From contig JANVFP010000026.1 of assembly GCA_027919835.1 (NCBI GenBank), positions 62,001 to 126,000 on the forward strand: a stretch of 64,000 nt of DNA, given 5' to 3'. The position numbers and the translations under genes were made by a program. This stretch comes from Lentinula raphanica. Lineage: Eukaryota > Basidiomycota > Agaricomycetes > Agaricales > Omphalotaceae. Below the pieces are notes generated by a model. It made no database searches, was not told the DNA's origin, and was given only the letters and a program-made list of their open reading frames with translations. Below, one piece after another: positions 2,307-8,219 of this stretch (position 1 is the stretch's first letter; the number at the start of each line of letters is the position of its first letter).

Positions 2307-4210
2307 TCCAAAATTGCCCAATGGCATTTCCTTGTTTCTGACTGGTCGTCTGCATCTGGAAATACTCTATCGCTTTCTCACTGAACAGGCAGCGGAAGAA
2401 CAGTCTATCATTTTGACTACCTGGATTGTTTTTTTCTTTCTCAGTGAAATGCTTCGATCTACTAGCAATCAAGACGTCGCGGACGTTGTCATGTTCGTAC
2501 TACCGTGTCGACTATATTGTGGTCGTTGTCCAGGGGTTCAAGTCACTCATCCCGACTCTACTCTAGTATTGGCGGCGGGCCTGTTGGTCTACTTCTGGCT
2601 TATCAGCTCGCACGCTTTGGCTGCAGTCCTTCCATCATAGGTTTGTATCGTATCACTGAACTTGCCGGGTTCATGAAGTCTTCTTCTTCGCAATTCTGAC
2701 ACCACACGACTACTTAGAACAAGATGACAAGACCCAAATTCCATCGTATGGGCGCGCTAGTACACTATGGCCTCGAACCATTGAGCTGCTCGACCAGCTT
2801 GACCTTGCTGAACCGCTAATTCAAGCAGGAATGCTCACTCGGTCGGGTCTACACTTCCATGAGTATTGAAATAGCGATAGAGCTTGTTACTTCAACAGAC
2901 CGATACTATTAACTTTACAGGGGGCGACGTGTAAAAGGTGGATTGATGTATGGCAATCGGATGGATAAATTAGGTGCGTCAACGATCCTGAAACTCAAAG
3001 TATTCAACTTAGATTTTTGCTATCCCGTTATCAGGGGACACTTTCTTCAAGTTTGCGTCAGTTGTGCCAAGCTCTGTTTTCTCTCTTTCTTAGTCCATCT
3101 TGAATCAGCCTACACCTACGCCAACGCGTCACCGAGGAAATCATCCTCCAAGCAGCCTCCAAGGCATATGGATTCTCCCCAAGGATACTTCATCAAATCC
3201 ACGGTTATTCCATCGACCCAAATGATGCTTCACATCCGGTAGTAGTTCAGATAAAAGACTTGCAGACAGACGAAATAGTTCAACTCAAATGGTTAGTTAT
3301 TTTTAAGTTTTCACTCCATGTCGTGGAAATTGTGCCGGCGTTAGTTGACGCTCGACGGTCACGGTTTTCAGCAAGTATCTGGTCGGCGCCGATGCGAGTA
3401 CATAAACTACAGTGACCATAGAATCGTACCGATAACATTCACCACAGGGTGGGAAATCGACCGTGCGCAAACTGGCTGGAATTTCTTTCGAAGGCGAACA
3501 TACGAAGAGCCGGTGGATCCGAATGGACGCCATGGTGAAGACAGACATGCCCAATTTTCGCTGTTTAAACAGCATCGACTCCGCCTCGCATGGTCAAATT
3601 CTCTGGTGCCCCCTCGACAATGGCCTAACACGGATCGGTTATGTTTTCTCTGCAGCTCTCATCGAAAAATATGGTGGAGTAGAAGGGGTCACGCAAGAAG
3701 TTGCAATGGAAGAAGCAAAGCAGGCTCTACATCCATTCAAGCTCGAGTTTCTGAGTGTCGATTGGTTCACGATCTATGTAAGTTCTTATCTCATTATTCA
3801 TCTCACTGTGCGCGCCGAAGCCGTACTATTCCAGGGGATTGGACAACGCATAGCGAGCACCTTTTGTGTTGGTGGTCGAATCTTTCTTGCTGGGGATGCT
3901 GGGCACACACATAGCTCTGGCTCAGCACAAGGCCTCAATACCGGTATACACGAGTAAGATGTTCTTTTATCTAAGCGTACGCATACTCAAACTCTCGATG
4001 ATGTTAAGTGCTGTCAATTTGGCTTGGAAACTTGCTGTATCTATAATCTCTTTCCTATCATCCAACTGGAAATCTCATGATTGCAGTTGTGTGCTCGTGG
4101 TCTGGCCAAGGAAGCCCTGCTTCATTCGTATGACGATGAAAGACGACCAGTCGTTCAAGTGGTAAGTTCTGGGTCATACTACTTCCCAACACTGCGTGAA
4201 AAGAAAGTCT

Positions 4211-4218
4211 TGTCTTGA
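4211..4218. repeat. Target-site duplication of element copy 1, left
   Basis: TGTCTTGA directly abuts the outer end of copy 1 and is repeated perfectly at 5746-5753 directly after its inner end. Confidence 0.9.
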
Positions 4219-5745
4219 AGAAATCGGGTCTATCACCTTTAAACATCCAATGGCTTGCCCATTTTTCATTTAAACATGTTTAAACAAGAGAATTTTTTGA
4301 ACATAGGAAGTGTTTTTTGCTAATTGGCTCAGATTCATCTCCATGAAGGATGTTCTGTTTAAACAAAGGTGATTTAAACAAACCATATATTTAAACAACT
4401 GGTGTACTTAAACAAAATCTATGTTTAAACAAAATGTATTTAACTAAAGTGAGCACCGAAAAAAACACAATTCTAGCCCGGCTGATTCTCTTCACCCCTT
4501 GAAGCTTGAAGTCCTGCATACTCACGGTAGTGGCACTGTGATGGCGTGACCTGATAGTTGGCCTAAATTGACGTTGTGATAACTCTGTAATTGCTTTGAG
4601 TGAAAAATTCAAACTTGAGGTCTTGAACAAATTCTCACCTTGACCCCTTGACCAACCAATAATCCTTTCTCATATCAGACCCTATGCTTGTATGGAATGA
4701 TGACAGAATGAATGAAATAAATGGACTACTTACTGCAGGCAGGGTGCAACAAGGAAGGAAGGAAGGAGGGAAGGAAGGAAGGAGGGAAGGAAGGAAGGAG
4801 GGAAGGATGAAAGAGCGAAAGGAAGAAAAATTACATTCCCACAGTCTCGGGCGCTGACATGTTTCCCACAGAAAATGTCATGTGGACTTCCATTTTCGGT
4901 CATTTTCGGTGGGAACCTCAGCCTCAGGTTGAACGGAATTCGTGGGAAATTCCATGTTTCTTTCTTTCGCTCCTCCAACATCGCCGTCGTCGCCACTTTT
5001 GCTGCTGTACTGCTCATCACCGGTCACTGCATGCCACTCCGGATTCAAGTAACCTGTTGTGCTGGTCACCCTGTTCAAGTTCTTCCACTTATCAGGTCTG
5101 GTATTGCTGCTCATACATGAGGTGAATGCCCGCAGTTTTGAATGATGTTTAGCAATGACTCACTCATTTCCAGCAGCCATGTTCTCTTGCTCCTAATACT
5201 CAAACAGATATTAGACTCCTCCAGAATTTGGATAGGTTAGATGGTTTCCATGTAAGTTGTTCAAGAATGACATTTTTTTGGACTTTGGGCTCTGATGTTT
5301 AAACAGGCATGGATCAAATAAGGTGACCTTTGATTAAACAGAATCTGATGTTTAAACATCCCCAATGATTTTGATGTAAGTTGTTTAACTTGCTTTTGTT
5401 TAACTGACTTCTGGTATTGTTTAAACAGAGTCTGATGTTTAAATATCCCCAATGATTCCGATGTAAGTTGTTTAATTTGATTCTGTTTAACTAATCTCTG
5501 ACATTGTTTAAACAGCTCTTCAAACAGATTCCGATGTTTAAGCAATGTAAGTTGATTAAATAGACCATGTTTAAACAACTTCTGATATCATTTAAACAGC
5601 TCTAAGATCATGGATTACACCTAGGCAGTACTTGTAGGTAGTTGTTTAAACAGTAGTGTATGATGTGAAATGAGAATGTTTAAACATTTTTAAACAAAAA
5701 ACGGGCAAGCCATGAGTTGTTTAAAGTGAACTCGTCAGGCTACAG
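4219..5745 (-). mobile_element. Non-autonomous hAT-like DNA transposon, copy 1 (intronic)
   Basis: This 1,527-bp element runs AGAAATCGGG to GTCAGGCTACAG and is flanked by a perfect 8-bp duplication TGTCTTGA. Its ends form imperfect terminal inverted repeats sharing TTTAAACA, ATGGCTTGCCC, a T-run and ATGTTTAAACA, although the outermost 18 bp or so are not complementary. Both subterminal zones (about 4236-4440 and 5297-5700) carry roughly fifteen TTTAAACA motifs, mostly within the palindrome GTTTAAAC. The core (4440-5290) lacks them and holds a GGAA-rich microsatellite. The longest ORFs (79-105 aa) are repetitive or unlike any transposase, so the element must move in trans. An 8-bp duplication with subterminal repeats is typical of hAT. 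No transposase is present, so the superfamily is inferred. Confidence 0.85.
4751..4806. repeat. GGAA/GGAGGGAA microsatellite inside element copy 1
   Basis: Alternating GGAAGGAAGGA and GGGA units make a purine-only tract of about 56 bp. It is reproduced without a length change in the other copy (7392-7447), although such tracts mutate fast. Confidence 0.9.
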
Positions 5746-5753
5746 TGTCTTGA
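5746..5753. repeat. Target-site duplication of element copy 1, right
   Basis: TGTCTTGA is the partner of 4211-4218. It is followed at once by TCTAG, the likely 3' splice site of the host intron, and then by the exon beginning VIDNDKVIS. Confidence 0.9.
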
Positions 5754-6444
5754 TCTAGGTTATCGATAACGATAAGGTCATTTCTACCTTGATCTCGGGT
5801 CATCATCCTCCTCAATTCCAGGGGCGCAGTGAACCAACCAGGTGAGTGGTTCTAATCTTGCGTACTATTAAGATCCCCATAGCTCATGGCATGGCATTTA
5901 GACAATTATTGACCGAATGGTTCAACGATTTAAACATGCAGCATTTTACTCTAGGACTTGGTAAGTGTCCCTCGCCTGAATCATTCACAGAGATCTCATC
6001 TACTTTGTTGTAGGAATATCCTATCGTATGTGTCGAGTTTGAACCTAGTACCATTGGCTTCTGACTGACTGGTTTACAGCGATCAATCTGCTCAATGTGA
6101 ACCCTACAGGTCTGTTCAGTGCTGCTATCGATCCTGGAGAGAGGGGGCCTGACATATATCTGACGAGTCTGGGGTTTGAAAACCTTCTATGCCTGATGGT
6201 ACATAGACCCTGATTTTTTCCCATAGCACTGGGGATCCGTTGCGGCTACAAAGAATCCTGAGCAACACAGCCAAATTCTCGTGAGTGCCGATCGCTACAC
6301 TACCTTGTACTTTTTGACCTAAAACCCCATTGAAGGATTGTAGTGTTTGCCGGCAAACCTGAACACACCGGCCCTTCTCTTACCAGCTTGAGCTATGTAG
6401 TCGCTGGGTCGGACTCCTTTGCTGATATGTTCCCCAAGGAAGTA

Positions 6445-6452
6445 TTCCAATG
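6445..6452. repeat. Target-site duplication of element copy 2, left
   Basis: TTCCAATG at the end of the KEVFQ coding block is repeated perfectly at 7980-7987, where the reading frame resumes with GGTTCACTTTTCC. Confidence 0.9.
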
Positions 6453-7979
6453 CTGTAGCCTGACGAGTTCACTTTAAACAACTCATGGCTTGCCCGTTTT
6501 TTGTTTAAAAATGTTTAAACATTCTCATTTCACATCATACACTACTGTTTAAACAACTACCTACAAGTACTGCCTAGGTGTAATCCATGATCTTAGAGCT
6601 GTTTAAATGATATCAGAAGTTGTTTAAACATGGTCTATTTAATCAACTTACATTGCTTAAACATCGGAATCTGTTTGAAGAGCTGTTTAAACAATGTCAG
6701 AGATTAGTTAAACAGAATCAAATTAAACAACTTACATCGGAATCATTGGGGATATTTAAACATCAGACTCTGTTTAAACAATACCAGAAGTCAGTTAAAC
6801 AAAAGCAAGTTAAACAACTTACATCAAAATCATTGGGGATGTTTAAACATCAGATTCTGTTTAATCAAAGGTCACCTTATTTGATCCATGCCTGTTTAAA
6901 CATCAGAGCCCAAAGTCCAAAAAAATGTCATTCTTGAACAACTTACATGGAAACCATCTAACCTATCCAAATTCTGGAGGAGTCTAATATCTGTTTGAGT
7001 ATTAGGAGCAAGAGAACATGGCTGCTGGAAATGAGTGAGTCATTGCTAAACATCATTCAAAACTGCGGGCATTCACCTCATGTATGAGCAGCAATACCAG
7101 ACCTGATAAGTGGAAGAACTTGAACAGGGTGACCAGCACAACAGGTTACTTGAATCCGGAGTGGCATGCAGTGACCGGTGATGAGCAGTACAGCAGCAAA
7201 AGTGGCGACGACGGCGATGTTGGAGGAGCGAAAGAAAGAAACATGGAATTTCCCACGAATTCCGTTCAACCTGAGGCTGAGGTTCCCACCGAAAATGACC
7301 GAAAATGGAAGTCCACATGACATTTTCTGTGGGAAACATGTCAGCGCCCGAGACTGTGGGAATGTAATTTTTCTTCCTTTCGCTCTTTCATCCTTCCCTC
7401 CTTCCTTCCTTCCCTCCTTCCTTCCTTCCCTCCTTCCTTCCTTCCTTGTTGCACCCTGCCTGCAGTAAGTAGTCCATTTATTTCATTCATTCTGTCATCA
7501 TTCCATACAAGCATAGGGTCTGATATGAGAAAGGATTATTGGTTGGTCAAGGGGTCAAGGTGAGAATTTGTTCAAGACCTCAAGTTTGAATTTTTCACTC
7601 AAAGCAATTACAGAGTTATCACAACGTCAATTTAGGCCAACTATCAGGTCACGCCATCACAGTGCCACTACCGTGAGTATGCAGGACTTCAAGCTTCAAG
7701 GGGTGAAGAGAATCAGCCGGGCTAGAATTGTGTTTTTTTCGGTGCTCACTTTAGTTAAATACATTTTGTTTAAACATAGATTTTGTTTAAGTACACCAGT
7801 TGTTTAAATATATGGTTTGTTTAAATCACCTTTGTTTAAACAGAACATCCTTCATGGAGATGAATCTGAGCCAATTAGCAAAAAACACTTCCTATGTTCA
7901 AAAAATTCTCTTGTTTAAACATGTTTAAATGAAAAATGGGCAAGCCATTGGATGTTTAAAGGTGATAGACCCGATTTCT
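6453..7979 (+). mobile_element. Non-autonomous hAT-like DNA transposon, copy 2 (exonic)
   Basis: This second full-length 1,527-bp copy is in reverse orientation to copy 1, running CTGTAGCCTGACG to GACCCGATTTCT. It is flanked by a different perfect 8-bp duplication, TTCCAATG, so it is a separate insertion event. It carries the same subterminal TTTAAACA arrays and GGAA-rich core as copy 1. It lies within the monooxygenase coding exon and, read from the upstream frame, adds CCSLTSSL and a stop. It encodes no recognisable transposase. Confidence 0.88.
7392..7447. repeat. TTCC/TTCCCTCC microsatellite inside element copy 2
   Basis: This is the reverse complement of the tract at 4751-4806, with equal length. 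Confidence 0.9.
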
Positions 7980-7987
7980 TTCCAATG
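7980..7987. repeat. Target-site duplication of element copy 2, right
   Basis: TTCCAATG is the partner of 6445-6452. The host exon resumes here. Confidence 0.9.
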
Positions 7988-8219
7988 GTTCACTTTTCCT
8001 GCAACTTCTGGCAATGGTTGTCAAGAAATCCTCGGATGTCGTCCATTTGGAAAGGTCTACCTAGACGTAGACATGAGAGCGCACGAGATGTACGGTGTCG
8101 ATGTGCGCCAGGGTGCAGTCGTTGTGTTCAGACCGGATGGATGGATTGGTACCGTTGTCCCATTGATTGGCGCCAGCGATCATTTGAAGGCGTACTTCGG
8201 TGGAATACTAGAAACATAG

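Follow-up and report, generated by a model that had tools for sequence, protein, structure and literature searches.

Two identical, gene-less elements, best filed as KDZ transposon derivatives, inserted in opposite orientation within one phenol-2-monooxygenase-like gene of Lentinula raphanica

Our analysis of a 64,000-nucleotide stretch of the Lentinula raphanica genome (the window; contig JANVFP010000026.1, here C26, positions 62001-126000, within an assembly of 49,059,867 bases and 75 contigs) identified two identical copies of a transposable element, lying in opposite orientation within a single gene that resembles those of FAD-dependent phenol-2-monooxygenases. We propose that the element is a non-autonomous derivative of the KDZ transposons, moved by a KDZ transposase encoded elsewhere, and that the pair then arose by a recent local hop within the gene, an account that we hold at a probability of roughly three in four. 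The copies and their target-site duplications lie at the following window positions:

4219-5745, plus strand: copy 1, non-autonomous KDZ element, AGAAATCGGG...GGCTACAG, within an intron (4218-5745 if a constant A is included)
6453-7979, minus strand: copy 2, identical and in the opposite orientation, within a coding exon (6453-7980 if the constant A is included)
4211-4218, unstranded: left target-site duplication of copy 1, TGTCTTGA (7-bp reading TGTCTTG)
5746-5753, unstranded: right target-site duplication of copy 1, TGTCTTGA
6445-6452, unstranded: left target-site duplication of copy 2, TTCCAATG (7-bp reading TCCAATG)
7980-7987, unstranded: right target-site duplication of copy 2, TTCCAATG

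Direct alignment of the two copies revealed 0 differences in 1,527 bp, which bears out the claim of the initial annotation that two identical 1,527-bp copies face opposite ways, and which sets a 95% upper bound of 0.2% on their divergence. A repeat search delimited the arms at 4218-5745 and 6453-7980 (1,528 nt, 100% complementary, spacer 707 nt), giving the pair the overall outline of a 3.76-kb inverted repeat, and all five inverted pairs listed in the window (seed 14, minimum 60 bp) fall inside these arms. Chance similarity of the arms was ruled out, as a perfect match of 1.5 kb far exceeds chance. Because two different duplications flank the two copies at two unique sites, the pair represents two separate insertions; with each copy carrying its own duplication and no base having changed, the annotated picture of a single gene recently hit by two insertion events stands.

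The same outline would result from one fold-back or palindromic element, or from a segmental duplication in inverted orientation. The duplication differs from arm to arm, the 707 bp between the arms belong to the host gene, and the same ends are found on single copies elsewhere; we rejected a fold-back element and a segmental duplication on these grounds, as the annotators had done, and, provided that the assembly is right, we regard such an origin as practically negligible. A misjoin that mirrored one real copy is slightly easier to imagine, since other perfect or near-perfect inverted repeats longer than 2 kb are present in the assembly. Hairpin-type misassembly is expected to mirror the flanks too, and against it stand the two different unique sites, the separate duplications and the coding sequence on both sides of each copy, which make an artefact very improbable.

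Three such inverted repeats surround hAT-domain matches: C13:190829-198700 (arms of at least 2,442 nt, no mismatch, spacer 2,988 nt), C2:1918304-1924900 (arms of at least 3,221 nt, 1 mismatch, spacer 155 nt) and C35:480210-486707 (arms of 2,705 nt, 3 mismatches, spacer 1,088 nt). The first two reach the edge of the sequence examined, making their arm lengths minimal, and the outer flanks of the third contain no matching duplication. They may be twin insertions, palindromic elements or inverted duplications.

The damage to the host gene can be followed from its exon structure:

2449-8219, plus strand: host gene, resembling those of FAD-dependent phenol-2-monooxygenases (start and most exon boundaries assigned by eye)
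4162-5758, plus strand: intron with copy 1, 1,597 bp, or 62 bp minus the element and one 8-bp duplication
6337-8219, plus strand: final coding exon (approximate start), interrupted by copy 2

Beyond the right duplication of copy 1, 5 bp of the intron remain. The reading frame continues into copy 2, where codon nine is a stop. Past copy 2, the coding sequence scores 46.3 bits (cut-off 24.9) with PF07976, the phenol hydroxylase C-terminal domain, and also matches phenol 2-monooxygenase structures (best E 4.1e-8); two upstream pieces match the FAD-binding domain weakly, under the curated cut-off; the 37-aa stretch before copy 2 matched no Pfam family. The exons as read by eye contain no further stops or shifts. 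When the 1.9 kb of the gene before copy 1 was searched against the assembly, its single match was itself, leaving no second allele to compare. Function of the gene has probably been lost.

With respect to the nature of the element, the window copies are best filed, by sequence comparison, as gene-less, non-autonomous KDZ elements, because larger elements with the same ends encode a KDZ transposase and none of the 78 hAT-domain (PF05699) matches of a genome scan lies between paired family ends. Besides the full-length copies and a pair of half-elements described below, the elements that carry these ends are as follows:

C16: shorter element, 1,732 bp
C1: shorter element, 1,986 bp
C4: shorter element, 1,671 bp
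C25: shorter element, 2,026 bp
C2: larger element, 7,720 bp
C24: larger element, 18,985 bp
C43: larger element, 16,681 bp

Pfam searches detected KDZ transposase fragments in the 7.7-kb C2 element (81 bits) and the 16.7-kb C43 element (38 bits; cut-off 26.6), with PF18758 in both of these paired-end elements and PF18803 (CxC2, 103 bits) in the latter. A genome-wide profile scan, in which the assembly gave at least 158 KDZ-domain matches, also placed matches inside the C2 element (121.1 bits), the C43 element (79.5 bits) and a half-element on C24 (121.1 bits); these are among the matches listed, and elements with no match listed there cannot be called empty. Two KDZ genes at C36:100106 and C36:120409 lie 20 kb apart on the same strand, are 99.7% identical over 3.7 kb and both have open frames of more than 800 codons.

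Membership in hAT, as the initial annotation had suggested, would be consistent with the hAT-domain genes present in the assembly, and 8-bp duplications are also typical of hAT. One hAT gene (2 of the 78 matches, C1:15110-15401) is even located 2.4 kb inward of the unpaired left end at C1:17843, but the KDZ-like stretch from that end stops at C1:15851, the gene falls outside it, and we read it as a nested or adjacent insertion. With no hAT match between paired ends, a hAT assignment has very little left in its favor, and our data correct a label that rested on duplication length alone. Miniature inverted-repeat transposable elements are very short, abundant and devoid of coding capacity; this class was rejected for the window copies on account of their 1.5-kb size and the four full-length copies found.

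The question of where the pair came from depends on its closest relatives. The genome search with the 1,527-bp unit suggested by the annotators returned at least four full-length copies, namely the window pair, C44:72489-74029 and C27:154819-156347, all copy counts being lower bounds because the search scored the best candidates only. The boundaries of the other family members correspond to those of the window pair, as the initial annotation would have it. With gaps excluded, each window copy shows 39 mismatches to C44 (1,495 sites compared) and 42 to C27 (1,480 sites), with a further 4 and 8 gap events, respectively; identity is 93% and 91% when gaps are counted. Between C44 and C27 there are 51 mismatches in 1,519 sites. 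Since a 32-bp expansion of a 16-bp repeat array is common to both window copies and absent from C44 and C27, the alignments indicate that, among the four full-length copies found, the window pair has an ancestor not shared with the other two. Furthermore, four randomly placed copies would be expected to yield only 0.0005 pairs this close, although that figure was calculated post hoc. Together, these results point to a shared, very recent source of the pair, most simply a local hop, as had been suggested from the window alone.

Two other histories deserve mention. The copies could be unlinked insertions from a third donor that met by chance or in a hotspot gene; cut-and-paste donors can be lost, the 75-contig assembly may be incomplete and could lack such a donor, and the separate duplication on each copy suits this history as well. 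We nevertheless consider it unlikely, as the search returned no third copy of the window type, C44 and C27 do not carry the array expansion and are set apart from the pair by 39 and 42 mismatches, and the chance of any two of the four copies lying this near is, post hoc, about 0.0005. Alternatively, older insertions may have been held identical by gene conversion between the arms, since close inverted repeats can convert each other. This is a distinctly poorer candidate: the lack of further stops or shifts in the exons, which were read by eye and not from a formal gene model, suits recent breakage, and conversion adds an extra step for which nothing in the data calls.

A local hop of a KDZ derivative would proceed as follows. 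First, a KDZ transposase encoded at another locus would recognize the ends of the element through its subterminal inverted repeat and many GTTTAAAC sites, excise it and reinsert it with a staggered cut of 7 to 8 bp, bringing one copy into the phenol-hydroxylase-like gene. A daughter of this first copy would then have inserted some 700 bp away in the opposite orientation, too recently for any base change. As the outcome, copy 2 breaks the reading frame, and copy 1 expands a 62-bp intron to 1.6 kb. We infer the mobilization by a KDZ transposase, the local nature of the hop and the role of GTTTAAAC as a putative binding site.

Several observations weigh against this account or against parts of it. 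The ends of the window copies match those of the larger elements only moderately (about 79% for the 7.7-kb element, about 83% for the 16.7-kb element), and no closely matching transposase source for them was found in the assembly. No coding sequence is apparent in the copies themselves, whose longest stop-free stretch is 134 codons with the repeat array included. The outermost 18 bp at the two ends of the element have no inverted-repeat relation, and the ends read AAGAAATC...CTACAG instead of the CA..TG reported for Kyakuja elements. Gene conversion could likewise yield the identity of the copies. Local hopping does not seem general among KDZ matches, because of the seven groups of equal-scoring matches read off the list just one (C36) has its two members on the same contig. 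Finally, the available part of the one paper checked for it, on Cryptococcus KDZ elements (PMC12810828), makes no mention of local hopping.

Should KDZ elements indeed hop locally, this would be a new description as far as our limited literature check goes, and the window would offer a clean natural case, two sister insertions, for asking whether they hop nearby. More broadly, the pair shows a fungus that holds KDZ elements stripped of their genes and apparently still moving very recently, with a fresh gene disruption as a result. We advance more tentatively, as a possibility well short of even odds, that KDZ transposons hop locally and that the inverted pair is now a composite, in which the outward AGAAATC ends could carry off the enclosed piece of the host gene or the facing ends could trigger local rearrangements. 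The instability of so long an inverted repeat and its hairpin-forming transcripts, both raised in the initial annotation, are plausible.

The length of the target-site duplication required a closer look. Both window copies match over all 8 positions, as annotated, but 4 of the 12 family insertions (C44, C16, C1 and C43) match over 7 bp only. In a strand-normalized table, the base preceding AGAAATC is A in all 12 insertions, and the duplication matches over at least 7 bp in all 12. Assigning this A to the element leaves a 7-bp duplication in 11 of 12 insertions and one of 8 bp in C27; assigning it to the duplication gives an 8-bp match in 7 of 12 and a 9-bp match in C27, with the four insertions named above failing at that position only, so that the eighth position matches in 8 of 12. 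At the target sites, A adjoins the 7-bp duplication in 8 of 12. We prefer 7 bp because the A is constant before AGAAATC yet unmatched in the other flank in 4 of 12 insertions; the duplication is best read as 7 bp, sometimes 8, and the element may be 1,528 bp long (4218-5745 and 6453-7980) with 7-bp duplications.

This length bears on the lineage within KDZ. Zisupton-type elements are defined by an 8-bp duplication, terminal inverted repeats and a Zisupton-type transposase; here, the eighth position matches in 8 of 12 insertions, and the outer 18 bp are not inverted. A Kyakuja assignment is not supported: the duplication length fits, but the ends and the subterminal repeat do not.

Internally, the window copies contain the following features:

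4237-4286, plus strand: left arm of the subterminal inverted repeat of copy 1 (50 bp, 86%; partner 5677-5726)
5677-5726, plus strand: right arm of the same repeat (partner 4237-4286)
6472-6521, minus strand: arm of the subterminal inverted repeat of copy 2 (partner 7912-7961)
7912-7961, minus strand: other arm of the copy 2 repeat (partner 6472-6521)
4753-4807, plus strand: array of the 16-bp unit GGAAGGAAGGAAGGAG (GGAA-type; mirrored in copy 2 at 7391-7445)
4888-4965, plus strand: central core, element positions 670-747 (mirrored in copy 2 at 7233-7310)

Each window copy carries 10 GTTTAAAC sites against 0.06 expected from mononucleotide shuffles, a weak control; the remaining 60,946 bases of the window contain 3, and seven other elements contain 7 to 22 each. 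The central core, of about 80 bp, can be aligned in all seven short family members compared, most of which differ elsewhere, and weakly in the 19-kb C24 element, while blastn (E 0.01) did not find it in the 7.7-kb or 16.7-kb elements. It might, at a guess, be a remnant promoter.

Regarding precedents, our limited literature check recognized no description of a non-autonomous KDZ or Zisupton element in a mushroom. The kind of event is already known; the KDZ family and the tight spacing are the new details. Ac/Ds elements belong to the hAT superfamily, and in maize and rice, closely linked Ac/Ds ends reportedly can act together and rearrange the chromosome. The window pair is similarly closely linked, its capacity for rearrangement being a prediction only.

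The fungal KDZ transposons comprise Kyakuja, Dileera and Zisupton, and the survey by Kojima (2025, PMC12730594) gives Kyakuja a 7-bp duplication, CA..TG ends and no inverted repeats, and Zisupton an 8-bp duplication. Like the KDZ elements described there, our family has a KDZ-domain transposase in same-ended elements and duplications of 7 to 8 bp (PMC12730594). The window copies, however, are gene-less, and their AAGAAATC...CTACAG ends and subterminal inverted repeat set them apart from Kyakuja as reported. In Cryptococcus, a study reports that KDZ1 to KDZ3, of about 9 to 11 kb with a transposase, CxC1 and inverted repeats of 139 to 241 bp, were caught inserting into exons and introns of a reporter gene with duplications of 8 bp (KDZ1) or 4 to 8 bp (KDZ2 and KDZ3), and that clearly non-autonomous copies were not seen moving (PMC12810828). 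The window insertions resemble these in hitting both an exon and an intron and in duplication length, but the copies are 1.5 kb long and gene-less.

Other mushrooms offer parallels. In Pleurotus ostreatus, MSH4 is broken by an insert whose identical second copy lies 23 kb away; two further identical copies are arranged tail-to-tail at a distance of 6 kb, and among the possibilities that the authors mention is multiplication close to the initial copy (PMC7641404). As in the window, a gene-breaking insert has an identical copy nearby, but the spacing is much wider and the elements belong to a CxC5/CxC6 cluster with a possible Copia link, for which KDZ membership was not established (PMC7641404). 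Non-autonomous hAT elements of Marasmius oreades, which moved in cultures, are likewise short and gene-less and have ends in common with an autonomous partner, but they depend on a different transposase superfamily (PMC9674265).

The remaining observations concern family ends elsewhere in the assembly and the window at large. Pattern scans detected 13 exact right ends and 16 left ends with no mismatch. For right ends, exact matches alone were used, as the 17-base pattern with two mismatches gave 21 matches against 13 for the reversed control, which is chance level; the control of the left-end pattern gave no matches. A partner was not identified for 4 of the 16 left ends (C1:17843, C8, C17 and C39) and 1 of the 13 right ends (C49). 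Half-elements on C24 (353337 onward) and C58 (7269-11027) have a common 8-bp flank, TTTTATCG, and are 97.4 to 99.7% identical to the 7.7-kb element; they look like one 7.7-kb KDZ element with a rearrangement, nested insertion or assembly break inside, a link that rests on the flank and the identity and without which the insertions number 11 instead of 12. The 18,985-bp C24 element contains a long terminal repeat (LTR) element, recognized by eye from its open reading frames. A second gene lies inside several same-ended elements, on the strand opposite to the transposase in the 7.7-kb element, and in the C43 copy, three pieces of it gave nothing above the Pfam cut-off. Within the window, GC content is mostly 45 to 50%, and the genes have short introns, judged by eye. 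The left ends at C39:349745 and C8:1037227 have the same flank and are 99.3% identical over 3.3 kb, which marks them as a copied segment that includes sequence beyond the element end. Finally, six sites (C1:2077287, C9:253087, C20:630015, C33:349796, C34:202950 and C50:49984) carry a related left end, AGAAATAAGCTCTATAATACTTAAACATC, which possibly represents a sister family.

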